Assembly (NCBI RefSeq): GCF_000315485.1
Contig: NZ_JH992941.1
Location: forward strand, 310,001-374,000
DNA from: Bacteroides oleiciplenus YIT 12058
GTDB taxonomy: Bacteria; Bacteroidota; Bacteroidia; Bacteroidales; Bacteroidaceae
DNA: 64,000 nt
Reading direction: 5' to 3'
Shown: positions 2,767-20,218 of the stretch, one piece after another
Position numbering within the stretch: position 1 is the stretch's first letter
Layout of the letters: every line of letters begins with the position of its first letter
Translations under genes and position numbers: made by a program
Notes under the pieces: generated by a model
What the model saw: the letters and a program-made list of their open reading frames with translations, nothing else
Databases searched by the model: none
What the model was told of the DNA's origin: nothing

Positions 2767-4467
2767 TTATTCTGGTATTGTAGTACCTTCCGGCATTACA
2801 CGACGATTAAAGAAGAAGAAACCAAATTGATCAGCTTTGTGAAGTTTCTTCCAACCATAAGCATACTCATAAATAGCAGCAATGGCAAAACGGAAACCAT
2901 AACCTGTATAAGTATCATTGAGCGTAATCTTACCAGTCTTTTGATCCATTGTCACACCGCCATATTTCGCAAATGTTGCTTCATATAATTCAGGGTGTTC
3001 TCTATCATCATTAAAACCACCTAAAATTTCGTCTCCTCCATTAACTTCCTTACCTGTAGCCGGATTCAGCCATTTTCCATATGCTTCTGGCACCAAAATG
3101 GAGATACCACGGAAATACCAGTATATGCCACGAGAGAATTGTGCATATTTCTTTGCAATATTATCCATTACAATAGTGTTTCCATCGCAAAACAAAACTG
3201 TTTCACCATCAGCTGTTTGAATCTGATAATTAGCATTAGCCCAATTTTCCAAGAAGCTCTTTCCACGGTGAGTAATTTCAGCATAATCTTCTTCCCAATT
3301 TGTAAATGTGTTCTGAATATCAATCACCTGAGCACCTAAAGGCAAACTTTTTGTACGTCCGCCCCACTCGCCTTCATACTCTTCGTTAAATGTACCAGCA
3401 AAATCAATGTCAGCTAATTCATCATTAATACAAACATAAATCTTAGCCTTTACGACATCATCAGCCAACACATTAATCAAGAAACCTTTACGATCTGCAT
3501 TTTCATTGAAGCTGGTTCCTGGTCTTTCACTAAATGCCCATGTACCATCTTTCTTCAAACTCTTACTAAGAAGTTCTTGCTTTTCCTGTGCTTTGCCAGC
3601 CGGCTGTTTGCTACTACTTGCAACTGCAAATTCTGCATTAGCCGGAAGTTCACTAAATAAATCCTTGAAATTAAGAGCATCCAAAAGATTAGATCCTTTA
3701 ATTGTCATTTCTTTAAAACCGTCTGCAAGATCTTTAGGACTATAATCCGCTTTGATCGTAACACCACCCAAATCTTCGGCAACAGACGAGAAATCATCAG
3801 ATACTTTCACATTGAAATAATTGGAGCCAATAATTGTTCCTTTCAAATTCAATTGAAGAGATACAGCATAAGTTTTTCCAGCTTCTGCTTCACCAAGGGC
3901 TTTAATAGGAACTTTAATAAAATCACCTTCCAATGTAGCATCTCCGCTCACTTTAAACTGTTCACCATCAGCAGCACGGGTAAGTACATGAGACTCAGCT
4001 ATTGTAAATTCGGCACCATCCAAACTCTTGAGAGCCGGTCTTGCCAAGAAACTAACAGTAACACCAGCACTACCGATTTCTACAATACCATCTACCGTTT
4101 CCGGACTATAAATCAGAGAATTCACTAAAGATCCCAACGGAAGGACATACTTTTCACCTTCTATTGTAATGGTAGCCTCCGTATCAGTAACTACTATAGA
4201 GATATTTCCTCCACCCGGCTTAATTACAATTTTTTGTCCGTCACTCAATGTCAATGTATAAGTGCCATTCTCTTCTTTCACATTAGTAATACTTGCACCA
4301 GTCATCAGTGCTTTTCCCAATTGGGCTTTGATGTCGTCAATTGCCACTTCGATTACTGATACTCTTGATTTCAGATCATCAACATCATCATTATTACATG
4401 AAGTAAAGGCTCCTGTTGAAAGAACCACCGCTCCAAACAGGAGCGCATTTAAAAATCGTTTGTTCAT
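2767..4467 (-). CDS. DUF4988-type surface lipoprotein, candidate glycan-binding protein
   Basis: 566 residues. A lipoprotein signal peptide ends in the lipobox GAFTSC (Cys24), followed by acidic CNNDDVDD, a common context for surface-exported Bacteroides lipoproteins. A short coiled coil (DLKSRVSVIEVAIDDIKAQL, about 31-50) is typical of the DUF4988 / PL29-N-terminal class. After it come beta-rich repeats (TYTLTLSDGQKIVIKPGG, then ATITIEGEKYVLPLG) and a C-terminal aromatic-rich region. I see no catalytic motif. It is transcribed ahead of the SusC gene, so a role as a cell-surface glycan-binding protein is a reasonable inference. Genes in that role usually follow SusC-SusD, so the order here is uncommon. 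Confidence 0.75.
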   Translation of the reverse strand: MNKRFLNALLFGAVVLSTGAFTSCNNDDVDDLKSRVSVIEVAIDDIKAQLGKALMTGASITNVKEENGTYTLTLSDGQKIVIKPGGGNISIVVTDTEATITIEGEKYVLPLGSLVNSLIYSPETVDGIVEIGSAGVTVSFLARPALKSLDGAEFTIAESHVLTRAADGEQFKVSGDATLEGDFIKVPIKALGEAEAGKTYAVSLQLNLKGTIIGSNYFNVKVSDDFSSVAEDLGGVTIKADYSPKDLADGFKEMTIKGSNLLDALNFKDLFSELPANAEFAVASSSKQPAGKAQEKQELLSKSLKKDGTWAFSERPGTSFNENADRKGFLINVLADDVVKAKIYVCINDELADIDFAGTFNEEYEGEWGGRTKSLPLGAQVIDIQNTFTNWEEDYAEITHRGKSFLENWANANYQIQTADGETVLFCDGNTIVMDNIAKKYAQFSRGIYWYFRGISILVPEAYGKWLNPATGKEVNGGDEILGGFNDDREHPELYEATFAKYGGVTMDQKTGKITLNDTYTGYGFRFAIAAIYEYAYGWKKLHKADQFGFFFFNRRVMPEGTTIPE

Positions 4468-4991: not shown

Positions 4992-6701
4992 TTACTTCCC
5001 GACTCCATTCTCATTGAAAGCAGTGACAGAAAAATAATATTCCGAATCTCTATTGAAATAACGAGCTTCATAATGGTTGTTGTAAACTACCATGGAGTGG
5101 GTAAGTTTCTCTTTCTGCGTTCCCCAACGCAAAATATAGCCAGTCACATTATCCTGCGGTTCCCAACTAAAACGGTAGATACGTTTATCATTTTCATCAC
5201 GTGAAGCCTGGAAGCCTGTTACTACAGCAGGAACTTTACCACCACCCTGACCGAAAACACGTAAATCGAACAAAGAGAAACAACCTTCCATATCTTTCGT
5301 ATTGCAAATTCTCAGGTATTGCATTTTTGCAGGAGCACTCAAAGTATGCAGTTTATGAGGAGCATCTTTCTCGTTCTTTTCTTCATCAATCAGACGAGTC
5401 CAATTCTTCCCATCAGTTGAACCTTCAATATAATATTGGTAAACCACTGGTCCATGAGGAGCATGAACATTGAAGTTGTGATCGGCAAAATTGACTTGGA
5501 TAGCATTTATCTCCATTAGTTTGCCGAGGTCCATTTGCAACCACTCGCCCTTATTACCTGTTTGGGCAGCCCACCAGGTTTCTACCTGCTCATCATTCGC
5601 TAACTCAGGTTCATAACCTTCAAGAGAGGAAGATGCAGATACCTTTTTCTTATACGAAAGTAAGTTCCAACCCATGTTGATATCTTCTTTTTCAAAGTCT
5701 ACTTTCCTATCGGGAATGCAGAAAGGATAATCAGCAAAAGTGGTAAGCGCATACATACCGTATTTATCAGAAACAACTACCGGGAATATACCTAAACGGC
5801 GTTCAAACCAATGGCGCACGGAAATTGTCATAGAGGCTACATGCCAATAATTGCCATACTTATCTTTGAATGTATGGCCATGTCCTGCACCACCGATAAA
5901 GCCACCGGGTTTGAAAGAAAAAGGATTATCTTCTACATATTCAAAGGGGCCTAACGGATTATCACCCACATAATTACCATCACCATAAATACGATATTGG
6001 GTACCAGGGGCAGCATATTGCAAGTAATAACGCCCATTATGTTTCAGTACACAGGGACCTTCATTCCAGCCTTGACGTGGTTCTTCATTATTCTTTCCGG
6101 GAACTTCCCAACCATATTTATCACCATTATGTTCAATCAGCGATTTAGGTTCTCCGATAGCACAGAAACCATTCTTCGGATCTACTTCTACACCCACAAT
6201 CGGATCTACGTCAGAACATCCCCAATATAAATAGACCTTTCCATCATCATCTTTAAAGAAAGCCGGATCATGCTGACGGTAAGTCAACTTTGTATCCACT
6301 TCCTCCCAAGTATCCGTCTCAGGATGGGCATTCTTGAAAATTCGGGTATTTCCGCTGGATGCAGTAAAGTAAAGTGTATCACCATAAACAAGAATGGTAG
6401 GAGCATAATCTTCCAAGGTCGGAATAGTAGTACAGGGAATATACTCCCATTTGGCCAGATCTTCGGAACGCCAGTAACCACCGGATTTGGAAGCAAACAT
6501 GTAATAATATCCCTTGAAATATTCCAGTACCGGATCGGCAGCTTCGCGCCGTGACTCCTCGTTCGGTTGGAAACGATAGTTCAAGTCTATAGGATTGGTA
6601 ACAATCCTTTCATTCTGAACTATTTTCTGTTCTGTTGATGCACAACTTACGATCAGTCCTGAGACCAAAGCTATGCTCATTAATTTGGCAATGTTTTTCA
6701 T
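4992..6701 (-). CDS. GH43 family glycosidase lipoprotein with discoidin-like and Fn3 domains
   Basis: 569 residues. The lipobox VSC (Cys20) predicts lipid anchoring. The catalytic five-bladed propeller spans about 35-345, with the family triad visible as D56 (AADPVLEY), D145 (RQHDPAFF) and E214 (GWNEGPCVL). A discoidin/F5-8-type C module spans about 350-480 (GEWLQMDLGKLMEINAIQV) and a fibronectin type III module closes the protein (about 483-569). GH43 enzymes remove arabinofuranosyl or xylosyl units. Its ATG overlaps the GH31 stop by 4 bp (ATGA), indicating translational coupling. The subfamily and exact linkage cannot be read from sequence alone. Confidence 0.9.
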   Translation of the reverse strand: MKNIAKLMSIALVSGLIVSCASTEQKIVQNERIVTNPIDLNYRFQPNEESRREAADPVLEYFKGYYYMFASKSGGYWRSEDLAKWEYIPCTTIPTLEDYAPTILVYGDTLYFTASSGNTRIFKNAHPETDTWEEVDTKLTYRQHDPAFFKDDDGKVYLYWGCSDVDPIVGVEVDPKNGFCAIGEPKSLIEHNGDKYGWEVPGKNNEEPRQGWNEGPCVLKHNGRYYLQYAAPGTQYRIYGDGNYVGDNPLGPFEYVEDNPFSFKPGGFIGGAGHGHTFKDKYGNYWHVASMTISVRHWFERRLGIFPVVVSDKYGMYALTTFADYPFCIPDRKVDFEKEDINMGWNLLSYKKKVSASSSLEGYEPELANDEQVETWWAAQTGNKGEWLQMDLGKLMEINAIQVNFADHNFNVHAPHGPVVYQYYIEGSTDGKNWTRLIDEEKNEKDAPHKLHTLSAPAKMQYLRICNTKDMEGCFSLFDLRVFGQGGGKVPAVVTGFQASRDENDKRIYRFSWEPQDNVTGYILRWGTQKEKLTHSMVVYNNHYEARYFNRDSEYYFSVTAFNENGVGK

Positions 6702-9022
6702 AATAGTTTTATATTAAGTTTCTTTCCTTTGTATACTACGTTTACAGTCTGCGATTCATTATCCAGACCAAGCCCATCCTGTCCGTCCACAAGGGTAATG
6801 CGGAAATTACGTTCTTGCAGCATCCCATCATAACCTCCTTCACAAGGATAGATAGTAAACTGTTTCTTTCTGTCATTCCATGTCATACGGATAGTGGTGT
6901 ACTTTCCTTTTTCATAATTATAATTATCACCTTCATCCTCATATAAGATAAATTCCCCATCAGCACCGGGATAGATACGGATTTGCAGATTATTCCACGG
7001 TTTCTCGGTTGCATACTGTACGGAAGGTCCTACAGGGATGATGGAACCGACTTTCACATACAACGGAATTATATCAATAGGAGCATTGCGAGTAATCTCA
7101 CGTCCGCCATCTTGCATTTCACCTGTCCAGAAATCAATCCAACGGGTTCCCTCAGGCAAATATAAAGAACGACTTCGGCTTGTACTTGTAACCGGAGCTA
7201 CCAAAATAGACTTACCAAACATATATTCATCACCTAAGTCCAGCACCTTTTTGTCTGTCGGAAAATCAGAAAACAAGGCACGCATCAGACTTCCGCCCTT
7301 GGAAGTAACATCCCATGATGCAGAATAAATGTAAGGAAGTAAACGATAGCGGAGATTAATCATCTTCTCTTGCGCATCGAAAGCCCAATCACCCCGATTC
7401 CCAAACTGAAAAATCTCACGTGGAGTATTCGTACCGTGTGAACGCATCATACCGGTAAAAACGGAAAACTGCATCCAGCGTACATACAATTCCTGATAAG
7501 CCGGATTCTTCACACCACCAGGGAAATGATTGGCTGTATAGAATCCACCGATATCCGAGTTCCAGTAAGGTATGCCCGAAAGTGAGAAGTTCAGGGCAGC
7601 AGAAATCTGGTTACGTAGCACATCCCAGGCAGCAACAACATCCCCCGACCACGACTGAGCGCCGTAACGCTGCTGTCCGGCAAAGGCGGAACGCGTCAGA
7701 ATAAAAACACGTTTATCAGAAGCCACTGTCCGTTGATGATCGTAGACACCACCTACACTGACTAATGGAAAGGCATTACGCACCTTGCGGAAAGATCCCA
7801 GATAAGTTTGATAATCGTAATCTTCTTCTTTAATCGGATTATGTTCCGGTTCAGTAGCATCCAGCCACCAACTGTCCATGCCGATGCTGAACATCTGCTC
7901 GTTCAAGTGCTTCCAGTAAATATCTCTTGCCACAGGATCGTAAGCATCATATACCTTGACGCCGGAGTTCTGCGGAAAAGTCTCGTGTGACATCAGTTTG
8001 TTATGTCGTTCAAAATCTTTATACGGATTAGTAGCCGGACCAAAGGAAGGCCAAACAGAAATCATTGCATGGGCATTCAGACTATGCACCTCATCCAACA
8101 TCTTTTTAGGATTGGGAAACAGAGGGTTGCGGAACTCTATCGCATTCCAGTCTGCATGGTCTTCTCCCCAATAGCGCCAATCCTGTACAATGCCATCCAG
8201 AGGAATTTGCAGATCACGATACTTCTTCACTACCCCGACCAACTCATCCTGGCTGACATAACGTTCTCTGGACTGGTTGAAACCAAATGACCAAAGCGGG
8301 AACATGGGAGCCTGTCCGGTGAGGTCGCGCAATCCTGCCACGACTCCATCAGCACCTCCGCCATATACAAAGTAATAATCACACAAATCTCCGACTTCCG
8401 ACTCAAAAGTCATTCCCTGCTCATTGTCCGTGAAAGTAGTAGCAGAATAGTTATCCCAAAACAAAGCGTATCCTTTGACAGAGTGAATCAATGGAATATA
8501 AATCTCCATATTGACCTGCCGCATAACCATTGTCTGATTCCGCTGATTCATCCGTCCCTGCTGGTGCTGTCCCAACCCATAAATAGCCTCATCAGCATCC
8601 AGACGGAAACTCTGGCGAACCTTATATGTAGACATTCCTGCATCATCGAATGGAGTAAAACCAACAGAAGAAGGTTTTTCCGCTAACAGGACTTTTCCGT
8701 CCTTATCCGTAAAACAGACCTGATCCTTTGCGATATCCAGAGAAACAGACAATTCGGAAGTAATAAGTGTTATCCGGTTATCCTTTTCCTGCAATTTATA
8801 TTTCACATTTTCCGGTCGCTTGACAACCGAAAGAGAATGTTTCTCCGGTATTTTTCCTGAAGGATATTTCTTCACGCGTATGATAGAAGGAGAAAAGCAT
8901 TCCAGTTCCACACAGACAGTTCCGGCCTCTACTTTCACTCCATTGGAGATACGCGATACAGCCTGTCCCCATAATGGGACAAGCTGCATACAAATACATA
9001 AGAATGCTAGAAGTTTTTTCAT
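6698..9022 (-). CDS. GH31 glycosidase, probable alpha-xylosidase
   Basis: 774 residues with a Sec signal peptide (MKKLLAFLCICMQ...LWGQA). An N-terminal beta-sandwich is followed by the GH31 barrel. The nucleophile region is SWWLDATEPEH (Asp388) and the acid/base region is QSWSGDVVA (Asp461). The WLDATEPE form is common among Bacteroides alpha-xylosidases, though alpha-glucosidases can share it. There is no PA14 insert. Likely role: removing terminal alpha-linked xylose (or glucose) from oligosaccharides in the periplasm. It is 17 bp downstream of the GH3 gene and overlaps the GH43 start, so the three genes form one operon. Confidence 0.9.
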   Translation of the reverse strand: MKKLLAFLCICMQLVPLWGQAVSRISNGVKVEAGTVCVELECFSPSIIRVKKYPSGKIPEKHSLSVVKRPENVKYKLQEKDNRITLITSELSVSLDIAKDQVCFTDKDGKVLLAEKPSSVGFTPFDDAGMSTYKVRQSFRLDADEAIYGLGQHQQGRMNQRNQTMVMRQVNMEIYIPLIHSVKGYALFWDNYSATTFTDNEQGMTFESEVGDLCDYYFVYGGGADGVVAGLRDLTGQAPMFPLWSFGFNQSRERYVSQDELVGVVKKYRDLQIPLDGIVQDWRYWGEDHADWNAIEFRNPLFPNPKKMLDEVHSLNAHAMISVWPSFGPATNPYKDFERHNKLMSHETFPQNSGVKVYDAYDPVARDIYWKHLNEQMFSIGMDSWWLDATEPEHNPIKEEDYDYQTYLGSFRKVRNAFPLVSVGGVYDHQRTVASDKRVFILTRSAFAGQQRYGAQSWSGDVVAAWDVLRNQISAALNFSLSGIPYWNSDIGGFYTANHFPGGVKNPAYQELYVRWMQFSVFTGMMRSHGTNTPREIFQFGNRGDWAFDAQEKMINLRYRLLPYIYSASWDVTSKGGSLMRALFSDFPTDKKVLDLGDEYMFGKSILVAPVTSTSRSRSLYLPEGTRWIDFWTGEMQDGGREITRNAPIDIIPLYVKVGSIIPVGPSVQYATEKPWNNLQIRIYPGADGEFILYEDEGDNYNYEKGKYTTIRMTWNDRKKQFTIYPCEGGYDGMLQERNFRITLVDGQDGLGLDNESQTVNVVYKGKKLNIKLL

Positions 9023-9039
9023 AATGTCAGTGACAATGG

Positions 9040-11904
9040 TTAAAGAGATAGCACTTTATATTTAGTGGTAAATACAACAGGCGCATCACTGTCTTTATCC
9101 ACATGGAAAGGTATCAATTTCTCTTCTCCCGGAGCCAGTTCATAATGAACATTATCTCCTGTTTTCTGGCCACCAACATACATATCAATCTTACCGGTAT
9201 CCATTAAAGTACCATTGTTCTTAACAGATACCCAAACTGTTTTCTGGTTCTTCACCAAATTTTCTTCAACTTTGAACAACGTCAGACCGAAATCTGCAGC
9301 AAATTCATGGGTATATTCAAGCATACCGGACACGCCCTTTCTGGCATCTGTATAGCCTACACTATCTTTAATACGGTCTTTAGCCACATATTGAGGACTA
9401 ACACCACCGACTAATATCTTGAACTCTCCCTTCTCTACCACTCTATCCATATGGTCATTGAGCAATGATAAATCATAAGGTGTCAATTCAAAAGAAACTG
9501 TCTTTGATTCACCTGGCTTCAGATTGATACGAGTGAAGTCCTTCAATTCCGTAATACGTGTCTTTACACTGGCATACATATCAGTGACATACAATTGGAC
9601 AACTTCATCACCAGCACGTTGGCCTACGTTTTTCACAGTTGCCTGCACGGTAATATTGCCATTGTCTTTCTCCTGCACTTTCAGACCTGAATATTCAAAA
9701 GAAGTATAACTCAAACCATATCCAAAATAGTAGAGAGGATAATATTCCAAATCAGAATATTCATAACGGCGACCGGAAGTTTTAAAGTTATAGTAGAGAG
9801 GCAACTGACCAACGTGCTGTGGGAAAGTCATCGGCAAACGGCCGGCAGGATTATAATCTCCGAATAACACATCTGCTGTAGCCGGTCCACCTTCTTGTCC
9901 CGGTAACCAATTAACAATAATAGCTTTACACAACTTTGATGCTTTTGTCAGATTATAAGGGCGACCAGCCTGAAGCACTAATATAACCGGCTTCCCTGTA
10001 GCACAAACAGCTTCCAGCAACTCTTGTTGTTTTCCCGGCAGAATCAAAGTTGCATAGTCATGATTTTCACCGGATGTCTTGTAAACATCTGTCGTAGCTT
10101 CACTGGTTGAGCAATCTCCCAAAACCATAACTACCACATCTGATTGAGAAGCCGCTTTGACTGCTTTAGGAATATTCGTCTCACTCAAGTTTGTAAAGTC
10201 GCAACCTTGCTCATAAATTACTTTCGTCTGTTTGCCCACAGCTTGTTTGATACCCGTCAATACGGATTTCAACTGACCGGGCAGCAATTTCGGAGTATAG
10301 TCACCCGGCTGAAGATCATCTGCTCCGGGACCTAATACAGCAATCGAACGGATTCCTTTATCTAAAGGCAATATATTTTCCTTATTCTCCAACATTACGA
10401 TAGACTCCCGGGCTGCCTGACGTGCCATTTCTTTATGATTGTCTGAGTTCCAACCCGGATATATTTTATTCCAGTCCAAAGGTTTATTGGGAGCTTTTTC
10501 AAATAGTTCATTACGGAACATCATGCGTAACATAGTGCGACAAACATTATCCAGATTTTCCATATTGAGACGTCCATCCTTTGCAGCTTGTATCACCTCT
10601 TTATCATTATAAGTATCACCACAGTTTGTAGCAATACCTGCTGCCAATGCCTGGTTAGCTGCTTCAATCTTATCTTTTGCCGTATAGTGTTTGCGCGCCG
10701 TCAAGTTACCTATAGCGCCACAGTCACTAACTATAAAACCGTCAAAGCCCCATTCTTCGCGCAAGATATTATGCAACAACTCTTTACTTTTTGCAACCGG
10801 CACTCCCAGAAAGTCTGAGTAAGCCATCATCAAAGACTGGCAATCATAATTACGAATAACGTGACGGAACGGCACCAGATGTACCTCACGCATTTCCCGC
10901 TCGGACAATCCTATATCATGAGAATCGCGACCACCCAATGGAGCACCATGTCCCCCAAAATGTTTAGGAGTAGTAAATAAACCTTTGGACTGATACCCCT
11001 TAATCCAGGCTCCACCAATCTGTGATACCAAAACCGGGTCTTCACCAAATGTTTCTTCACAACGTCCCCAACGGGCATCCTGTGCTACATCCAGCACCGG
11101 AGACCATGCCTGCATAGTGCCTGCTGCAAGAGTCTCATCACCGACAGCCATTGCTATTTCCTCTGTCAGTTTCTTATTCCAGGTTGCTCCCATCGCCAAT
11201 GCTTGCGGGAAAATGGTTGCGCCACTACCATAAGAGAAACCATGCACAGCCTCTACTTTCGTGATAGGCGGCACATATAAATGAGGGATACCGGGAATGC
11301 CCCATCCTTCACGAATCAATTCCATTTTATCTTCCGGCGTCATCACAGACAACAGACTTTCCACACGTTCTTCCACCGGAAGCGTTGGGTCCATATAACG
11401 AAGTGCAGTCTTTTCACCTTTCCGGTCTTTCAATACTTTATCAGCCAAAAGAACTGAAACTTCCTTTACGGCAAAAGGTTTCACACGGTCACTTCCTTTG
11501 AAAGCCAGTCTGACATGTGCTCCATATTTGGGCGAAAACTTCACCTTCATTTCTTTTGCACTACCTTGCACCTGATAGTCCACAGGTACCCCGAGGTTCA
11601 TCGGGTCGTAGGTAACAAATACATTCATCAGTTGTCTCAAGTCGTCTTTCGCCACACCTTGCACCTGAAGATTAAGTTCGCATACATCACCGGGAGTCTG
11701 AATAGTAAACATCAACCATTGGTCCGTCTTCAAGTCCCGGCCATTAACTTCCCACATCGTCTTCGAATCTTTATCAAAAGCCAACGAAGCTTTTTCCATA
11801 TTAGTCGATGCCGAAACAGATAAAATATCACTTGGCTGCTGAGCCATTAGAAAAGTGCAGGACAATATACCTGCAAATAGAAACAAGTGCCTCTTTAAAT
11901 TCAT
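9040..11904 (-). CDS. GH3 beta-glycosidase with N-terminal discoidin-like domain
   Basis: 954 residues with signal peptide (cleavage near FLMAQQ). Residues about 25-155 look like a discoidin/F5-8 module (SASTNMEKASLAFDKDSKTM). The GH3 N-terminal barrel follows, with KHFGGHG (314-320) and the nucleophile Asp394 in GFIVSDCGAI; then the GH3 C-terminal domain, a fibronectin III-like domain and an extra C-terminal beta domain (about 870-954). Expected to act as a periplasmic exo-beta-glucosidase or beta-xylosidase. First gene of the GH3-GH31-GH43 operon; divergent from the membrane-spanning regulator with 211 bp between the start codons. Confidence 0.92.
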   Translation of the reverse strand: MNLKRHLFLFAGILSCTFLMAQQPSDILSVSASTNMEKASLAFDKDSKTMWEVNGRDLKTDQWLMFTIQTPGDVCELNLQVQGVAKDDLRQLMNVFVTYDPMNLGVPVDYQVQGSAKEMKVKFSPKYGAHVRLAFKGSDRVKPFAVKEVSVLLADKVLKDRKGEKTALRYMDPTLPVEERVESLLSVMTPEDKMELIREGWGIPGIPHLYVPPITKVEAVHGFSYGSGATIFPQALAMGATWNKKLTEEIAMAVGDETLAAGTMQAWSPVLDVAQDARWGRCEETFGEDPVLVSQIGGAWIKGYQSKGLFTTPKHFGGHGAPLGGRDSHDIGLSEREMREVHLVPFRHVIRNYDCQSLMMAYSDFLGVPVAKSKELLHNILREEWGFDGFIVSDCGAIGNLTARKHYTAKDKIEAANQALAAGIATNCGDTYNDKEVIQAAKDGRLNMENLDNVCRTMLRMMFRNELFEKAPNKPLDWNKIYPGWNSDNHKEMARQAARESIVMLENKENILPLDKGIRSIAVLGPGADDLQPGDYTPKLLPGQLKSVLTGIKQAVGKQTKVIYEQGCDFTNLSETNIPKAVKAASQSDVVVMVLGDCSTSEATTDVYKTSGENHDYATLILPGKQQELLEAVCATGKPVILVLQAGRPYNLTKASKLCKAIIVNWLPGQEGGPATADVLFGDYNPAGRLPMTFPQHVGQLPLYYNFKTSGRRYEYSDLEYYPLYYFGYGLSYTSFEYSGLKVQEKDNGNITVQATVKNVGQRAGDEVVQLYVTDMYASVKTRITELKDFTRINLKPGESKTVSFELTPYDLSLLNDHMDRVVEKGEFKILVGGVSPQYVAKDRIKDSVGYTDARKGVSGMLEYTHEFAADFGLTLFKVEENLVKNQKTVWVSVKNNGTLMDTGKIDMYVGGQKTGDNVHYELAPGEEKLIPFHVDKDSDAPVVFTTKYKVLSL

Positions 11905-11928: not shown

Positions 11929-11997
11929 GCAAAGTAAAGCGCAACCGCTTAATAAAATGATAACATCATAATTAATGAAACATTAAAATCCACTTAA
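11929..11997 (-). promoter_or_regulatory. GH3 operon promoter with two boxes shared with the GH95 operon
   Basis: Box 1 (plus strand GCAAAGTAAAGCGCAACC, from 11929, continuing to TTAATAAA at 11956) contains the -7-like TTACTTTG read leftwards. Box 2 (plus strand TTAAAATCCACTTAA, 11983-11997) lies upstream. Both recur before GH95 at 18591 and 18634. No TTTG lies at the -33 position, which fits an activator-dependent promoter. Confidence 0.6.
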
Positions 11998-12115: not shown

Positions 12116-14704
12116 ATGAAAAAGACACTATCTATAATCTTCCTCCTGCTTATATGTATGCATTCAATGTCTCAGCTTCCTGAATATGGTTTGCATATCC
12201 AGTCTTATCCACTTCAAAATTCCGAATTCACCAGCATGGCATTAGAAGATGGAAAGTACATAGAGACCAAAAGAGAAAAAATAACTCTGAGTTTCAACCT
12301 CTGGGTCAGACCTGATAATGTGTTCGGGACTGTATTCCGCATCATCACTGATAATAATAAGAACATCGACCTGATGTACAGTGTAAGTGATAACGACAGA
12401 CGTTTTCCAATCCTGGTTACCGGAGATGCCGTACATCCTATTCAAAAGGAAGTGAGACGTGAGATGTGGACTTCCGCCAATGTAACCCTTGACTTCAAAG
12501 AGGGTGATATTACCGTATCATATGATAGTACGGAAATCAAGGTTAAATATGCCGACCTGAAAGGCGTAGAGGGAATACGCATAGCCTTTGGCTATTGTCC
12601 ATTTGAGAATTTCTCTCTGGCCGATGTAGCTTCCGTCAATATTAGAGATATCAGTATAAAACGTGGAGCAGAAGAAATACGTCAATGGAAGATGGCACGT
12701 CACAACGGGGACGTTTGTTACGATGAGATATCCCACATTCCGGCTACCGGTAAAAACACCCGTTGGGTTATCGACCAATATATCACCTGGAAGAAAATCT
12801 ATTCACAGCATTTTGTGTCTTCTCCTTCCGTAGCATTCGATCCTCTTGTCGGAACCTTCTATGTAGCCACAAATAAAAAGAAATTATACGTCTTTCATAC
12901 TGATGAAAGAGTGACGGACACCATCCGGATAAAAGGTGGAGAGTTTGCCGCCAACTATCCAAACCAGTTGATATACATACCGCAACGCCAGCAGCTACTT
13001 TCCTATAATCTGAATGAGAATCTCTTTTCTGCTTTCGACCCCGTTACGCAGTGCTGGAAGGGGACGCAAGCGCCCGTACAAGAGCATGATTACTGGAACA
13101 ATACACTCGTTTATAATCCTGCCAATTCTTCATTAATTAGTTTCGGCGGATACGGACATTATCACTATAATAATAAATTAGTCATCAGTTATCCTTATGA
13201 AGACACACCGCAACGTCAACTCAGTCTGACAAGTATCCATCCCCGGTATTCTTGTAGTTCTGTTATTGTCGACAGTACACTCTACATCTTTGGCGGTCGT
13301 GGTTGCCCATCCGGACGACAGGAATTATCTCCCCGCAATTATTATGACTTATATTCAGTCAACCTGCTCACCCAGCAGGTCAATAAGCTGTGGGAAGCTC
13401 CGCAAACCCCGGTAGGTGGAGACTTCCAACCCTGCGAAAACATGGTTTATGATGCGGAAAAAGATTGCTTCTACCTTTTCAGCACACAGCAAGGCGGCAC
13501 TCTGATGAGAATTGATACACAAACGCCACATTTTGAACTAATGTCGCTACCTATGGGATTGAAGTTAGAATCGCAATACCTATATAGCAACCTATACTAT
13601 TCACCTAAACAAAAGAAACTATACGTAGCCATTCATCAGGCTGAAGTTAGCGGAAAGGCTGATTTGGATATATATGAATTGAATTTTCCCCCAATCCCCA
13701 TTCTGTCTTTCAAACAGCCGGATGTAGTTGAGGGCAAAACAGATCAGAGCAAGCACACCTATCTATGGCTATACATCGTAAGCGGATTATTAGTCATTAG
13801 CGGTATAGGAGCTCTTTATTACAAGAAAAGAAAAGAGGAAATAGACCGGATAAAGTCTTCTGCCAAAGAAGAAAAAAGCCCGACAACAAACACCTCCCAA
13901 GCAGAAGGAGCAAATACCCTACTGACCAAAGAGATGCCCGAAATAAAGATAGAGATGCCGATTAGTACACCTGATCTGACATTCCATAACTATGACTTTT
14001 CCAAGAAATGCGTTTGCTTCTTTGGTGGCTTCCATGTTGTAGACAAAGAGGGGAATGACTGTACAGCCTTATTCACCCCTACTCTTAAGGCTTTACTAAT
14101 ATTACTTATTCTTTATACAGGCAAAGATTCAAAAGGAATCATCGGGCACAAGCTGATCCAACTGTTATGGTACGATAAAGCAGAAGAGTCTGCTAAAAAC
14201 AACCGTAATGTATACATGAGTAAACTGCGCGGTTTACTGGATAAAGTGGGTGATATCAAGATACTAAATCAGAATGGATTCTGGAGTATACAGTTTGAAG
14301 AAGGCACTATCTGCGACTATCTGGAAGCGCTCCATTTATACAGAGGAAATAACGGACAAGACCTGGAGAAACTGCTTGAGCTATTATTGCGTGGTATGAT
14401 GCTCCCTAACGTAGAGAATGATTGGATTGATGCATTCAAGAATGATTTCTCCAATGATACTATTGATCTGCTTTGCAGATTATTAAAGCAGGAAGACCTT
14501 TCGGATACACTGAAACTGAAGATTGCAGACACCCTCTTCCAGCATGATTATATCAATGAAGAAGCGCTTTGTGTGAAATGCCGCATCCTCTGCCAGCAAG
14601 GAAAGAAGGGACTTGCCAAAACTGTTTATGATACTTTCTGCAAAGAATATGCAGCTTCATTGGGAACAGAATACAAATATTCTCTAATGGAGATTATCGA
14701 GTAG
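12116..14704 (+). CDS. Membrane-spanning one-component regulator: beta-propeller sensor, TM helix, winged helix plus BTAD-like domain
   Basis: 862 residues. A signal peptide (1-19) is followed by a jelly-roll/LamG-like region (about 25-185; LSFNLWVRPDN) and a Kelch/galactose-oxidase-type propeller (about 225-525; LVYNPANSSLISFGGYG, TLYIFGGRGC, MVYDAEKDCFYLFS). A single TM helix lies at about 548-568, then a KKRKEE stop-transfer and a low-complexity linker. Residues 632-728 look like an OmpR/SARP winged helix (FTPTLKALLILL, then NRNVYMSKLRGLL, then wing NGFWSI). The rest (730-862) is helical and resembles the bacterial transcriptional activator domain. This predicts periplasmic ligand sensing and cytoplasmic DNA binding in one chain, without phosphorelay. 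It sits between, and opposite to, two enzyme operons that share promoter boxes. Domain calls are by eye; DNA binding is inferred. Confidence 0.75.
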   Translation: MKKTLSIIFLLLICMHSMSQLPEYGLHIQSYPLQNSEFTSMALEDGKYIETKREKITLSFNLWVRPDNVFGTVFRIITDNNKNIDLMYSVSDNDRRFPILVTGDAVHPIQKEVRREMWTSANVTLDFKEGDITVSYDSTEIKVKYADLKGVEGIRIAFGYCPFENFSLADVASVNIRDISIKRGAEEIRQWKMARHNGDVCYDEISHIPATGKNTRWVIDQYITWKKIYSQHFVSSPSVAFDPLVGTFYVATNKKKLYVFHTDERVTDTIRIKGGEFAANYPNQLIYIPQRQQLLSYNLNENLFSAFDPVTQCWKGTQAPVQEHDYWNNTLVYNPANSSLISFGGYGHYHYNNKLVISYPYEDTPQRQLSLTSIHPRYSCSSVIVDSTLYIFGGRGCPSGRQELSPRNYYDLYSVNLLTQQVNKLWEAPQTPVGGDFQPCENMVYDAEKDCFYLFSTQQGGTLMRIDTQTPHFELMSLPMGLKLESQYLYSNLYYSPKQKKLYVAIHQAEVSGKADLDIYELNFPPIPILSFKQPDVVEGKTDQSKHTYLWLYIVSGLLVISGIGALYYKKRKEEIDRIKSSAKEEKSPTTNTSQAEGANTLLTKEMPEIKIEMPISTPDLTFHNYDFSKKCVCFFGGFHVVDKEGNDCTALFTPTLKALLILLILYTGKDSKGIIGHKLIQLLWYDKAEESAKNNRNVYMSKLRGLLDKVGDIKILNQNGFWSIQFEEGTICDYLEALHLYRGNNGQDLEKLLELLLRGMMLPNVENDWIDAFKNDFSNDTIDLLCRLLKQEDLSDTLKLKIADTLFQHDYINEEALCVKCRILCQQGKKGLAKTVYDTFCKEYAASLGTEYKYSLMEIIE

Positions 14705-14860: not shown

Positions 14861-16096
14861 TCATTTTCGTTTGGGCTGCTTCATTTCCAACGGCTTCTCT
14901 TTGCGCAGCATCTTACCTGCCTGCCCTACCAACCACAAGTAATGGTCGCTTTCAATTCCTTCTTCGATAGGAACAAATGTACTGGCACCTACAGGAACCT
15001 TTTTAGCACATTTGAAGATTGCCGTGCCTTCATCTATTTCGTCAAACATAGCTACATAAATCATTTCAGCTCCTTCCTTTATGGCCCCTGACAACTGTTT
15101 CCAAAGGAACGAACCTTTATTGCGTGGTATCTGCACACTATTTTCGCGCCCTTTCATATTACGCCACGAAAAACCTGGAAAACACAAAGGAGCATAGTCC
15201 ACTTTATTCTTCTTGGCCCACTTGATATCCTCACCAACCAGTTTCTGATAGCGGGGATATGAATCTTCATTATAACGCCCCACGAACCAAGGCATCACTA
15301 CATCACACTTCTTAATCAGTTCATGCAGACGAGGGTCCGATTCCGTATCGCCACTCAATTCGCGCCAATGCGTAGGCACACCCAGCATTACACTGAACCC
15401 TTGTGCTTTCAGACCATTAATAATCTTCTCAGCCTCATTCAGACCATAACGGCGGCGATCATTAAATCCCACTCCCCAAACAGTAACCAACGGTTTGCCG
15501 TTGTGATACAGATAGGAAGGATTCTTGGCATGGTCTTTCAAGGAATGGCGCTTGGCTATATCAGCAATATCTTTCAGTAACGCATCTTCACCTCCGGGGC
15601 GCATACCGCTCAGGTCGTACATCACACAGATAGCCCGCTCATACTTATTGGCAGCCTGCATGGCCGAGTTCAGTACCTTATTGAAGTGGTTCAGTCCGCT
15701 TTTATTGCTAATTTCCCCTACAAAGCGTTGCATAAACACGCCATCCAGTCCATACTCTTTCATCCATCTGAAATGGGTATCCACCGTAGAGGCATCGTGC
15801 GAAGAGAAAGTGTAAGCCGGCGTGCCGTCAGCAAACTTGAACTCCGTCTTATACAGTTGCTTATACTCCGATACTTCCGGCCAAAAGTCAATCGTACAGG
15901 AACCGGGGCGAAAACCATCGTGTCCGGTGTAGTGATACCATCCCCGGCCGGCACCATCATCAGGGGCGTTGAACCACCCCTGATAACCGGCCATCACCAA
16001 TCCTTTGTACGAGTTATACTGCTTTCCGGCAGTCTGTGCCATAATACCTACTGAAAACAACAAGTATACAATAAACCAATTTAGTCTTCTTACCAT
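14861..16096 (-). CDS. GH71/99-like glycoside hydrolase
   Basis: 411 residues with signal peptide (cleavage near IMAQTAG). The barrel-like sequence GLVMAGYQGWFNAPDDG at the start is typical of the GH71/99-like group. The end of the barrel carries FDEIDEGTAIF, with Glu353 and Glu356 spaced ExxE followed by GT. This is comparable to the ExxE pair of GH99 endo-alpha-mannan enzymes, where both glutamates are catalytic. The activity of this Bacteroides branch is not something I can state. It is the second gene after GH95 (38 bp gap) and so belongs to the same operon. Confidence 0.75.
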   Translation of the reverse strand: MVRRLNWFIVYLLFSVGIMAQTAGKQYNSYKGLVMAGYQGWFNAPDDGAGRGWYHYTGHDGFRPGSCTIDFWPEVSEYKQLYKTEFKFADGTPAYTFSSHDASTVDTHFRWMKEYGLDGVFMQRFVGEISNKSGLNHFNKVLNSAMQAANKYERAICVMYDLSGMRPGGEDALLKDIADIAKRHSLKDHAKNPSYLYHNGKPLVTVWGVGFNDRRRYGLNEAEKIINGLKAQGFSVMLGVPTHWRELSGDTESDPRLHELIKKCDVVMPWFVGRYNEDSYPRYQKLVGEDIKWAKKNKVDYAPLCFPGFSWRNMKGRENSVQIPRNKGSFLWKQLSGAIKEGAEMIYVAMFDEIDEGTAIFKCAKKVPVGASTFVPIEEGIESDHYLWLVGQAGKMLRKEKPLEMKQPKRK

Positions 16097-16134
16097 AACC
16101 TATTTTATATCTTTATTATCTTAATACCAATTCA

Positions 16135-18564
16135 CTAAAATGCTCTTTGCAAGGTGTACTTTTCTCCCGGTTGAGTCTGAATATCATACTCATAAATCTT
16201 ATACAGAAGAGGATACTGTGCCCTCAGTCCGGCAGCTACCAGAGGCTCTTTAATATCTCCGCGTTTCATCAACGGATTGGGATTATCGCCCTTGGCTTCT
16301 TTCAGTCCTGCACCTTCCAGTGGCACGTACGAACGGATGCGCAGGTTGCCACCGATGCGGGAAGTTACGGTAGCCGTAGTCAGCTCACCGCCATCCCAGT
16401 CCATATCTACCTCGAAAGCTCCACGGGCCACCAGACCTTTTACGCTGCCTTTGCTCCAATCTCCGGGCAGGGCAGGCAGTAAGTGCAATGCTTCATCATG
16501 ACTTTGAAGCAGCATCTCGGCTACACCGGCCGTAAAGCCGAAGTTACCATCAATCTGGAAAGGCGGATGTGCATCGAACATATTCGGGTAAGTGCGTCCG
16601 TTGGGGTTTCCATCTTCCACCAGATTCAGCATATTCTTGATTATCTTATAGGCATGGTCGCCATCGAGCAGACGTGCCCACAGGTTTATCTTCCAGCCGA
16701 TAGACCAACCGGTAGCCATGTCACCGCGATACAGGAGCGAACGTTTAGCTGCCTGAAAAAGCTGCGGATGCGCATACGGGGAAATCTGATTACTCGGATA
16801 AAGACCATACAAGTGGGAGACATGACGGTGGTCGTTACGCGGGTCATCCACATCGGCCAGCCATTCCTGCAACTGATTGTGCTTGCCTATCTGCATAGGG
16901 GGCAGGCGCTTAATCATACTTTGCAGACTGTCGCAATAGGATGTATGGTCGGGATACAGCAGTTTCGTAGCCGACAGGACGGAAGTCAGTGCATCCAGCA
17001 CAATCTGTGTGTCCATGGTGCATCCGGCGGTAAGCATCGTGCCTGTTCCCGGAGGGCCTTGTTCAGGCGACATGGAGGGTGCACAAACCATCCAGCCATA
17101 TTTAGGATGTTCCACCAGGAAGTCGAGGAAGAAGTCGGCAGCTCCTTTCAGAGCCGGATAAGCAGTTTGCAGGAATGCCTGGTCGCCTGTATAAAGATAG
17201 TGTTGCCACAAGTGCTGGCTCAACCAGGCACCGCCCAATGGCCAGACATACGAAGCACCATCTACAGGGCCGGCCATACGCCACAAATCCGTATTATGAT
17301 GTACTGTCCAGCCGCGACAATCATACAGGGTGTGGGCTGTGCCTTGTGCCGATTCGGAGAGCTCTTTTACCATCTGGAAGAGAGGCTCGTGCATTTCCGT
17401 AAGGTTGGTCACTTCTGCCGGCCAATAGTTCATCTCGGTATTGATGTTGATGGTATACTTTCCATCCCACGGGGCGAAGAGCTCATGGTTCCAGATGCCT
17501 TGCAAGCCTGCCGGTTGTCCGCCGGGCTGTGAAGAAGAGATGAGCAGGTAGCGACCGAACTGGAACATCAATGCTACCAGACCGGGGTCTTTGCCTTCAT
17601 TGAAATGCTTGATGCGGTAGGATGTCTCTTCTTTGGCGGAAGCTCCCACGTTGAGTGATACACGACCGAAAAGCTTTTGATAAGCTTCCTCATGGGCGGA
17701 CAGCGCCTGGGCATACGGGCGTTTCATGGCTTTCGCAAGGAACTCCGTCGCACGCCGGGTTTCATTGGCACTCACGTCTTTATAATTGACGAAGTTGGTG
17801 GCAGCCGTCACATAAATCACGGCGGCATCTGCACCTTTCACTTCGATGCAGTCATTGGTAACACTCACCTTGCCCTTTTCAGCCTTTATCTGGGTGCGGG
17901 TTTCAAAACGGATGGCTCCGGGGATGCCCTCGTGTGCAGAGCCGTGACCGGACAAGAGCAGACTCTTACCGCTTTTCTTTACCGCGTATTCCTTATACGG
18001 GGTGCTGTATCGGGTGGTGAAACTGACTGCGCCCGGTTTATCGGCTTCAATACGCACAATCAGCGCATTATCTGCCAACGAGGTAAACACGGTGCGGGTA
18101 TAGTTCACTTCACCTATTTTGTATCGCACGGATGCTATCGCCTTTTCCAAGTCCAGTTCTCTACGATAATCGGAGTAATCGGCATGTCCATCAAATTCCA
18201 GCATCAGGCTACCGATGGTCTGGAATGGCATACCATGTTGTCCGGTGAAGAAGTTATCGGCAATCATCTTTTCTGCTTCTTTCTCACGCCCGGTGAAAAG
18301 CAGTTCTCTGACCTGGGGCAACACGCCGAGTGCCTTCGGACTGTCATTGCGATGCGGTCCACCACCCCAGACAGTCTCTTCATTCAACTGTATTTGTTCA
18401 TTAACTACTCCGCCATAGAGCATGGCGCCCAAACGCGAATTTCCTAAAGGTAACGCTTCGGTCCATACCTTAGCCGGCTGACTGTACCACAGCTTCAAAT
18501 CATCAGCTTTGGCCATTACGCAACACGCGCATATAAAGAATAGACCTATCAAACGGTTTTTCAT
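16135..18564 (-). CDS. GH95 alpha-L-fucosidase (or alpha-L-galactosidase)
   Basis: 809 residues from the ATG at 18564. The frame opens 10 codons earlier, but only the inner start gives a proper signal peptide ([20 protein letters not shown]). GH95 hallmarks: [20 protein letters not shown] after the signal, NINTEMNYW (Asn373 and Asn375, matching the activating asparagines of the family), Glu567 in [12 protein letters not shown] (general acid), and Asp672 in FQIDGNFG. Inverting hydrolysis of terminal alpha-1,2-fucose is the usual activity; some members prefer L-galactose. First gene of a two-gene operon with the GH99-like gene. Confidence 0.92.
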
Positions 18565-18590: not shown

Positions 18591-18648
18591 GCAAAGAAAA
18601 GCGGAACCCATTAATAAAGTCAACGAAAAAGCCTTAATATCCACTTAA
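18591..18648 (-). promoter_or_regulatory. GH95 operon promoter with the two boxes shared with GH3
   Basis: Box 1 reads GCAAAGAAAAGCGGAACC from 18591 (the GH3 copy differs at two positions over these 18 bases) and continues to TTAATAAA. Box 2 is TTAATATCCACTTAA at 18634-18648. Box-to-box distance is 43 bp, against 54 bp at GH3, a difference of 11 bp. No -33 TTTG. Confidence 0.6.
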
Positions 18649-18758
18649 AATAAGATTAATAGAAAGGATTGACGAAAATAATGCTCTTTTTGAGGGAAGA
18701 AATGAGATTAACATGAGGTTATTTTCAGAGTCAGAAGCCGGTTTACGTAGTTGCTACT

Positions 18759-18890
18759 TTGCCAACGTCTTGCCAAAGCTTTGGCAAAGTCTTGCCAAGG
18801 CAGTGGCAAAAGTTTGCCAATGCGGTGGCAAAAGATTGCCAAAGCCTTGGCAGAAGATTGGCAAAGTATTAGCAGAAGATTTGCAAATCC
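18759..18890. repeat. Array B: twelve 11-bp units, consensus TTGSCAAAGNN
   Basis: Units start at 18759 and then every 11 bp through 18880 with no slip. The core alternates TTGCCA and KTGGCA, so palindromic words (TTGCCAA/TTGGCAA) are presented on one face of the helix. The last two units decay (TTAGCA, TTTGCA). It lies between the divergent GH95 and proA genes. Both strands are open here, but no supported start or homology makes it a gene. Confidence 0.85.
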
Positions 18891-18930
18891 TTTTTCAAAG
18901 AGATAAAGCATGCATTCTCAATATAATTAG

Positions 18931-18970: not shown

Positions 18971-20218
18971 ATGAACTTAAACAAAGTATTTGCCACTGTG
19001 CAGGAAGCCAGCCGCGAATTATTATCGCTGAGCGACCAGGAAATCAACCGGATTTTGCTGGCTGTAGCAGATGCCGCCCTGGCAAAATCGGACTTTATCC
19101 TTGCAGAGAACAAGAAGGACCTGGAAAGGATGGACCCTAAAGACCCGAAATACGACCGTTTGAAACTAACCGCAGAGCGTCTGCAAGGCATTGCTGCCGA
19201 CACACGCAATGTAGCAACCCTCCCCTCTCCACTGGGACGCATATTGAAGGACAGCACACACCCGAAAGGAATGAGAATCAAAAAAGTAAGCGTTCCCTTT
19301 GGCGTCATCGGCATCATATACGAAGCACGCCCGAACGTTAGTTTCGATGTGTTCTCCCTCTGCCTGAAAAGCGGAAACGCCTGTATCCTGAAGGGTGGCA
19401 GCGATGCCGACTATTCCAATCGTGCCATCATCAGCGTGATACACGAAGTACTGGAACGTTTCAACGTCAATCCACATATCGTAGAGTTGCTGCCCGCCGA
19501 CCGTGAAGCAACCGCCGAACTGCTGAATGCCCGAGGCTACGTGGATTTGCTCATCCCCCGTGGCAGCAGCAACCTCATCAACTTTGTGCGCCAGAACGCC
19601 ACCATCCCGGTAATTGAAACCGGCGCAGGCATCTGCCACACCTTCTTCGACCGATATGGTGACGTAAAGAAAGGTGCCGCCATCATCAACAATGCCAAAA
19701 CCCGCCGCGTCAGCGTCTGCAATGCTTTGGACTGCGTACTGATTGACGGAGACCGCCTCAGCGACCTCCCCGCCCTTTGCCGGCCGTTGCCCCAAAGCCA
19801 TGTGGTAATCTATGCAGACCCTTATGCCTACAATGTCCTGAAAGGCAGCTATCCCGACGAGCTGTTGAAAGAAGCCACAGAAGAGGACTTCGGCACCGAA
19901 TTCCTGGACTACAAGATGTCCGTCAAAACCGTTCAATCCATCCGCGAAGCCATCGCCCATATCCAGAAATATGGCTCCAAACATAGCGAATGTATCGTGA
20001 CCGAAGATGAGTCCCGTGCCGAATGGTTCTGCCGTGATGTGGACGCCGCCTGCATATACGTCAACGTACCGACTTCCTTTACAGACGGAGCGCAGTTCGG
20101 ACTGGGCGCTGAAATTGGTATCAGCACCCAGAAGCTGCATGCCCGTGGCCCCATGGCATTGGAAGAGCTCACCACCTACAAGTGGATTATCGAAGGAGAA
20201 GGACAGGTGAGGGAGTGA
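18971..20218 (+). CDS. proA: Gamma-glutamyl phosphate reductase (glutamate-5-semialdehyde dehydrogenase)
   Basis: 415 residues, the normal length. It reduces gamma-glutamyl phosphate with NADPH in proline synthesis. Family signatures: [33 protein letters not shown], the catalytic-cysteine region ALDCVLI, and [17 protein letters not shown] near the C-terminus. No proB lies adjacent in this window. It is followed after about 80 bp by the arginine-pathway carbamoyltransferase, so the two amino-acid genes are probably co-expressed. Confidence 0.97.

Follow-up and report, generated by a model that had tools for sequence, protein, structure and literature searches.

This study concerns a stretch of 64,000 nucleotides of Bacteroides oleiciplenus YIT 12058 (GCF_000315485.1, contig NZ_JH992941.1, forward strand, positions 310,001 to 374,000), which we will call the window, and more particularly one of its genes, which encodes a predicted membrane-spanning transcription regulator and lies inside a large polysaccharide utilization locus. 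The gene is an intact open reading frame (ORF) of 862 amino acids with an ATG start, and 29 full-length homologs could be aligned with one another (alignment A1). Read from its N-terminus, the protein comprises a signal-like segment, a LamG/ConA-like beta-sandwich, a Kelch propeller, a transmembrane (TM) helix, a variable linker, an OmpR-type winged helix and a BTAD-like helical tail. An earlier reading of the same DNA, made from the letters alone (the sequence-only reading), had claimed this order, and homology now bears it out. The parts are the following.

12116-14704, plus strand: regulator gene as a whole, Kelch sensor, TM helix and SARP-like output
12116-12172, plus strand: signal-like segment, residues 1-19 (probable end point), hydrophobic in this protein and in most full-length homologs
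12173-12730, plus strand: LamG/ConA-like beta-sandwich, about residues 20-205
12731-13750, plus strand: Kelch-type beta-propeller, about residues 206-545
13757-13819, plus strand: single TM helix, residues 548-568, with a hydropathy peak at 550 and a similar position in most homologs
14009-14299, plus strand: OmpR/SARP-type winged helix, residues 632-728, from secondary structure and homology
14300-14701, plus strand: BTAD-like helical domain, residues 729-862, in the same register as in AfsR

The hydrophobic N-terminus reads MKKTLSIIFLLLICMHSMSQ, and it is followed in all 29 full-length homologs of A1 by the same succession of sandwich, Kelch, TM and output. Pfam, read here at an expectation value (E) of up to 1, finds Kelch in 29/29 of them, BTAD in 10, Trans_reg_C in 3 and Laminin_G_3, weakly, in 2 (best E 0.016). 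In the regulator itself, the propeller is matched by PF24681 at residues 303-459 (E 8.8e-10, 38.7 bits, below the curated cut-off of 50) and by PF13964 (E 9.7e-5, again below its curated cut-off). A direct sequence search of the PDB with the single protein gave no match at E up to 1, and the corresponding profile search retrieved Kelch proteins with a best E of 3.3e-11. The AlphaFold models of the sensor and of the output are both of low confidence, with a predicted local distance difference test score (pLDDT) of 58 and 53 respectively and only 3 sequences each. The sensor model is beta-rich in its sandwich part, and Foldseek brings it together with Kelch propellers (KLHDC2 among them), sialidases with a lectin-like domain (NanB), laminin LG domains and the sensor of BT4663, a hybrid two-component system (HTCS). 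NCBIfam returned only an LPXTG-type match to the TM region, rejected as a chance match, and a search of viral contigs with the single protein found no family members.

The membrane helix orients the protein. Positive residues mark the cytoplasmic side of such helices (the positive-inside rule), and lysines and arginines number 2 in the 15 residues before the helix and 7 in the 15 after it, so that the C-terminus is predicted to be cytoplasmic. In three homologs (L003, L005, L009), the strongest hydropathy peak falls at 636-649 rather than at the TM position; since the alignment places these residues in the first helix of the winged helix, we read this peak as a buried helix. The topology proposed by the sequence-only reading is thus consistent with both hydropathy and charge distribution. 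With an extracytoplasmic sensor, a TM helix and a DNA-binding domain predicted in one chain, the regulator is, judging from its sequence, a transmembrane one-component transcription regulator.

The output half, a C-terminal block of some 230 residues, connects this protein to the SARPs, which are known from Streptomyces antibiotic regulators and in which a winged helix is directly followed by a BTAD domain. Among 36 homologous C-termini (alignment A2), Pfam recognizes BTAD in 20 (best E 4.3e-6) and Trans_reg_C in 6. When the A2 profile was searched over 394 genomes of the phylum, matches were found in 30 of them at E 1e-3, and they fall into two kinds: close ones (E 3.4e-41 or better), which come from other classes as well as other families, and a weaker group (from 2.3e-17 upwards) that includes typical SARPs of the phylum (best E 2.3e-17). 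Ten of the 18 weaker loci (L074-L091) were put to Pfam, and nine carry a BTAD above its cut-off in the register that A2 predicts, with partner domains that vary between AAA, TPR, receiver and MEDS; L090, the tenth, was set aside as a chance match, being a TPR/YaiO protein. The predicted structure of the C-terminus runs beta-beta-helix-helix-helix-beta-beta, then eight helices. In a Foldseek comparison with the PDB, its first six rows are AfsR (8hvr, 8k60) and EmbR (2ff4, 2fez), over about 250 columns and at E 1.2e-3 to 1.5e-2, the next row being at 0.25. The order of winged helix and then, directly, BTAD is found in the family profile, in Pfam on the members and in the Foldseek alignments of the low-confidence model.

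Several results weigh against this assignment. The regulator alone scores BTAD at E 0.26 (12.1 bits, cut-off 22.1), and because its own score stays below the cut-off, we call it a diverged SARP-like branch rather than an ordinary SARP. The AfsR and EmbR superpositions are poor (TM-score about 0.3, root-mean-square deviation about 13 A, none at E 0.001 or better). In the PDB profile search of the C-terminus, AfsR appears at E 2.3 and TPR designs rank at the top. VIA-align lists TPR-like and other helical proteins in its best 50 rows and no AfsR or EmbR, an absence that does not amount to exclusion. The structural evidence would not suffice by itself; it is mainly from the profile chain, with the structures in support, that we conclude that the predicted output block shares descent with SARPs. 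The SARP/BTAD-like output put forward by the sequence-only reading is therefore supported by profile, Pfam and Foldseek together. A C-terminus folded otherwise than as a winged helix, which would have spoken against it, is not what the profiles and the low-confidence models indicate.

We will now turn to the DNA on which such a regulator might act. The promoters of the two enzyme operons that flank the gene, whose first genes encode glycoside hydrolases (GH) of families GH3 and GH95, share an ungapped match of 75 bp (score 23, versus a maximum of 16 in 200 shuffles). In both, TTAA recurs at relative positions 4, 15, 26 and 49, that is in steps of 11, 11 and 23 bp, which gives the candidate site TTAA-N7-TTAA-N7-TTAA-N19-TTAA, with TTTGC 15 nt beyond the fourth TTAA.

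11929-11997, minus strand: candidate operator 1 with its -7 element (TTAA array and TTTGC), 93 nt before the GH3 start, the array itself at 11949-11997
18591-18659, minus strand: candidate operator 2 with its -7 element, laid out in the same way, 95 nt ahead of the GH95 start, the array itself at 18611-18659

The sequence-only reading had marked two promoter boxes here as likely binding sites. The first, 11929-11997, coincides exactly with one array and its TTTGC; the second, given there as 18591-18648, corresponds to the other array with its TTTGC, which extends 11 bp further, to 18659. Both stand as candidate sites on the sequence evidence, and a description of them as two separate single motifs was given up for the 11-bp array after the promoters had been compared.

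The spacing of these arrays to the promoter is constant in relatives as well. In 18 non-redundant arrays from 42 stretches (the lipoprotein-cluster arrays described below being excluded), TTTG (17) or TTCG (1) stands exactly 15 nt past the fourth TTAA, a distance that was not part of the search pattern. The consensus of the Bacteroides -7 box is TAnnTTTG (PMC7366714), and from its sequence and position the TTTG beyond the arrays is the TTTG of this box. A search with a free gap (three TTAA, a gap of 20-45 nt, then TTTGC) gave 32 matches, among which three pairs at one site, in 7 genomes that have a family member, against none in 5 that lack one and 1 for the reversed control. In 29/32, the length from the array to TTTGC is within 1 bp of 69 or 58, which differ by 11, these being related promoters and not independent cases. 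All 5 sites that this search found in the window's own genome lie in its two family loci, including a third site in the locus of the regulator, before a GH92 operon 27 kb away (C2:294858-294915). Descriptions of SARP sites give direct repeats at intervals of 11 or 22 bp, of which the last one stands 8 bp from the -10 box (PMC10936776), and often three heptamers with spacers of 4 nt (PMC5930380, PMC10972967). The layout found here (11, 11, 23 bp, and a fixed distance to TTTG) obeys this rule except for one additional base in the final step, and if the repeat is taken as 8 bp, 8 nt separate the last repeat from the -7 octamer.

The distribution of the array also follows that of the regulator family. 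The window, searched with up to 2 mismatches, contains 4 matches versus 0.14 expected, one of them being the second array read on the other strand. The whole genome of 7.09 Mb contains 4 exact four-TTAA patterns, two near the regulator and two near its only paralog (L002, 37% identity), 8.5 and 15.9 kb away; all four are thus no more than 16 kb from one of these two genes, and the reversed pattern has 0 matches there. In 8 genomes, 21 of 26 matches have a family gene within 20 kb, where 0.6 would be expected. One of the five exceptions is on a short contig of genome G035, ahead of a GH3 ortholog (80% identity), and so probably belongs to the same locus. In 15 family-free genomes (about 64 Mb), there are 0 matches, and 2 for the control. 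Over 60 genomes, these two sets included, the array is present in 9/10 genomes with a close family member and in 1/50 others (Fisher P 6.6e-9), where it lies in a G/C-run sequence of G049. A close member was defined here by a gap in the best E per genome, from 2.9e-149 to 1.8e-98, a split chosen after seeing the data; the weaker test, with any family match, gives 9/24 versus 1/36 genomes (P 6.5e-4). Among intergenic 4-mer triples at 39 loci, period 11 forms a peak (69 triples, 20 loci) with TTAA as the top word (31), versus 5, 6 and 3 loci at periods 10, 12 and 13; periods 7, 8 and 22 are also raised (10, 14 and 20 loci), with other words leading. Distant family members have array variants such as TTAACC repeats.

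Some observations do not fit this association or call for prudence. G011 has a close member and no exact four-part array. The reversed control gives 6 matches versus 33 forward in the 60 genomes, so that a few of the 33 may be background, and the P values suppose more independence than related genomes and promoters have. The four remaining exceptions are the following: two arrays of G057 (C1:200671-200739 and 203543-203591) precede genes of 647 and 369 amino acids, the nearest family gene being 225 kb off, and two overlapping arrays of G035 (contig C201) lie in simple-repeat sequence beside a gene of 663 amino acids, whose product is 78% identical to the 647-residue protein of G057.

These last arrays are found in a conserved lipoprotein gene cluster (G057, L158, C1:191000-210900, at 9740 and 12592, minus strand; G035, L161, C201, about 2886-2957), which also has an S26 peptidase and an O-antigen-ligase-like gene. 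They may be a target in trans, or that of another SARP-like regulator. Three small genomes of the genus (L172, L173, L175) have TTAA arrays 123-144 nt before a 505-amino-acid gene beside a family gene; SusC/SusD-like genes were not found in these three stretches, and the 505-amino-acid protein of L172 has, by eye, a Tat-like start. Within the window, at about 18700-18900, between the GH95 operon and the gene at 18971, one finds tandem TTTGCCA/TGGCAAA-rich repeats of about 22 bp.

The setting of the regulator is a SusC/SusD polysaccharide utilization locus of about 47 kb (contig C2, 281.7-328.7 kb), which extends past the window edge. Its genes in and next to the window, all assigned by Pfam, are as follows.

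9040-11904, minus strand: GH3 enzyme, first gene of the operon behind operator 1
6698-9022, minus strand: GH31 enzyme
4992-6701, minus strand: GH43 enzyme with an F5/8 type C domain
2767-4467, minus strand: DUF4988 protein, probable surface lipoprotein from its N-terminus
1-2725, minus strand: SusC-like TonB receptor, cut by the window edge, with SusD next to it outside
14861-16096, minus strand: GH99-like protein (E 2.5e-7, 30.6 bits, below the cut-off of 33)
16135-18564, minus strand: GH95 fucosidase-family enzyme, first gene behind operator 2 (E 2.6e-173)
L092 (left flank of the window's locus), 15549-17531: SusD

For GH95 we chose the ATG at 18564, the ORF list having a TTG at 18594. Outside the window, on its left, the locus continues with the remainder of SusC, SusD, a DUF3823 protein, two GH99-like proteins (below the cut-off), GH38 and two GH43, as well as a weak alpha/beta-hydrolase match, GH92, a GH3-like protein (assigned by sequence cluster c7 and not by Pfam), GH2, a second GH95, a further GH43 and GH30; one locus protein of 412 amino acids has no Pfam match. 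With the known activities of these GH families in mind, the set GH92, GH38, GH95, GH31, GH43 and GH3 suggests a branched heteroglycan with mannose and fucose. The sequence-only reading was right to place the regulator in a glycan locus; the two enzyme operons between which it saw the gene are indeed there, and they belong to one large SusC/SusD locus reaching beyond the window. Largely right as that reading was, the extent of this locus and the 11-bp code had escaped it.

This setting is frequent among the near relatives. Stretches of about 20 kb around family genes were compared (25 kb for the window, some cut by contig ends, L092 left out of the counts). In the 40 first examined, a SusC-like cluster is present in 23, SusD-like genes in 14 and GH92-like genes in 17. 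Against this, only 2 of 14 later stretches, which come largely from distant or small genomes, contain genes like SusC and SusD, in a comparison that may miss distant ones, which brings SusC-like genes to 25/54 overall. The chance of SusC/SusD genes at a random place is at most about 0.3 (105 SusD genes in the 7.09 Mb of the window's genome), and at this rate the tail probability is 2.7e-4 for 23/40 and 8.4e-3 for 25/54. The link to SusC/SusD is thus clear in Bacteroides relatives and not general. Around the paralog L002 are GH31, MGH1-like, SASA esterase, BNR_4, alginate-lyase-like and GH2 genes, and at a distance of about 10 kb SusC-like and SusD-like genes follow.

The family itself is well represented in the genus (24/60 genomes at E 1e-10 or better, in a whole-genome search) and scarcer in a family-level draw (5/151 genomes and 2/30 genera at E 1e-8). 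Its sensors are not uniform. Among eight close matches from other families that were put to Pfam, six carry Kelch (L063-L066, L068, L073), L071 has Laminin_G_3 (E 2.7e-19) ahead of the TM helix in place of Kelch, and the sensor of L072 has no meaningful Pfam match. This means that the output block has been joined to different extracytoplasmic domains. In two distant Bacteroidota (L074, L087), the SARP block is N-terminal and followed by a TM-like hydrophobic peak and TPRs, in the opposite orientation, and possibly forms a membrane-bound SARP. Outside the class of the window's genome, family genes also occur as tandem pairs with one shorter member (L165 and L166, 646 and 853 amino acids; L162, 808 and 259).

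How does this regulator compare with known systems? With AfsR and EmbR it shares the order of winged helix and BTAD, colinear over about 210-250 residues, and with SARPs in general the direct repeats 11 bp apart that end near the -10/-7 element. It differs from AfsR and EmbR in that its output is C-terminal, preceded by a signal-like segment, a propeller predicted in the periplasm and a TM helix, with no NOD, TPR-sensor or FHA domain, and in that it sits in a glycan locus and not in an antibiotic cluster, with a Bacteroides -7 promoter, a TTAA core and a fourth repeat at a distance of 23 bp; the Foldseek alignments show an identity of 15-19%.

The likeness to SusR lies elsewhere. SusR carries DUF6377, and in the regulator's own genome the output profile retrieves only the two family genes and none of the 7 DUF6377 genes; conversely, a search of the genome for DUF6377 lists 36 places without the regulator gene among them, and this gene has no Pfam DUF6377 match at E up to 1. 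SusR-like proteins are described as membrane one-component regulators of glycan loci with a periplasmic sensor, a cytoplasmic DNA-binding end and direct-repeat sites (PMC3878776), and the regulator resembles them in its membrane one-component layout, its locus and its direct repeats. The SusR repeats are 67 or 77 bp apart (PMC3878776), compared with 11, 11 and 23 bp here, and we ruled out membership on the output profile, the DUF6377 search and this spacing. With the HTCS of Bacteroides, it has in common a periplasmic propeller-type sensor above a cytoplasmic DNA-binding domain, the BT4663 sensor being among the Foldseek rows. It does not belong to them, having no kinase, receiver or AraC-type domain by Pfam at E up to 1, nor to the extracytoplasmic function (ECF) systems, of which Pfam finds no domain.

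ToxR and CadC are likewise one-component regulators working from the membrane, with an N-terminal winged helix where that of the regulator is C-terminal. A survey of transmembrane transcription regulators describes them as one-component proteins that act from the membrane, many with a helix-turn-helix (PMC10269533); the word SARP is absent from its main text. We found no published account of a membrane-bound SARP-type glycan regulator in a search that covered few subscription papers and no preprints. The sequence-only reading had spoken of a distinct class, which has to be qualified: both parent kinds are known, the transmembrane one-component regulators (SusR, and those of the survey) on the one hand and the SARPs on the other, and what is apparently new is the union of the two, accompanied by a Kelch or LamG sensor and by an 11-bp-repeat site on Bacteroides promoters.

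Altogether, the regulator is quite probably a transmembrane one-component activator of the polysaccharide utilization locus with a SARP-type output, distinct from SusR, HTCS and ECF systems. Its LamG-like domain and Kelch propeller would sense a glycan fragment of the locus in the periplasm. Ligand binding would alter the dimer or its packing, and this change would cross the single TM helix to the cytoplasmic SARP-type domain. SARPs bind side by side and engage region 4 of sigma (PMC10936776, PMC5930380, PMC10972967), and several protomers may, as in AfsR, bind in this way on the TTAA repeats 11 bp apart. With the last repeat at the position of the -33 element, they would recruit RNA polymerase to the weak -7 element. 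The predicted targets are three operons of this locus: GH3-GH31-GH43-SusC/SusD, GH95/GH99-like and GH92.

The same protein and the same sites could also serve a repressor, or the cytoplasmic half might be freed by proteolysis upon a signal and act as a soluble protein. Nothing computed separates activation from repression, and the linker (residues 569-631) is poorly conserved in A1, as expected of a tether but also of a cleavage region. Repression is at odds with the promoters: the fourth repeat ends 15 nt before TTTG, at about the -33 position, and the second base of the -7 box is T rather than A in 16/18 arrays, a departure from the consensus for which we regard the box as weak. A repeat so positioned and a weak box together give the picture of an activator-dependent promoter, as for AfsR, whose promoter is weak and activator-dependent, and SARPs are described as activators (PMC10936776). 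We therefore hold this alternative to be unlikely.

That the arrays belong to another regulator (HTCS, SusR-like or ECF sigma), the protein being a bystander or only a sensor, we consider very unlikely. The arrays of the lipoprotein cluster, with no family gene nearby, would agree with it, and SusR sites are also direct repeats (67 or 77 bp, PMC3878776); but the arrays associate genome-wide with family genes, their 11-bp step is that of SARPs and not that of SusR, and Pfam shows no HTCS, SusR or ECF gene in 22 of the 23 locus ORFs of at least 90 amino acids, the 23rd clustering with GH3. It is extremely improbable that the C-terminal half does not bind DNA and is the cytoplasmic TPR tail of a Kelch surface or periplasmic enzyme or binding protein, as the leading TPR designs and the TPR-like VIA-align rows might suggest, since BTAD too has a TPR-like fold, SARPs can be aligned with the winged-helix half and a SARP-type array adjoins the genes.

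Beyond this single locus, the activator reading would extend to a further class of glycan-locus regulators of Bacteroidota, which we think likely, with some reserve: membrane-spanning SARP-type activators whose periplasmic sensors can be exchanged (Kelch capped by a LamG-like domain, LamG by itself, or others), which would read sugars outside and assemble from the membrane on an 11-bp repeat array phase-locked to the unusual -7 promoter of Bacteroides. In gut Bacteroides, the control of glycan loci is attributed to HTCS, to SusR-like systems and to ECF sigma/anti-sigma pairs (PMC3878776); this regulator would add a fourth layout. As both the regulator and its site can be read from sequence, the regulons of uncharacterised loci would become predictable, and the compact pair of sensor and promoter may be of use for engineering gut bacteria. 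If the proposal is true, the SARP mechanism, structurally detailed for AfsR, would be extended to a phylum whose primary sigma factor and promoter are different. SARP activation would then either be older than its role in the control of antibiotics or have passed from one phylum to another.

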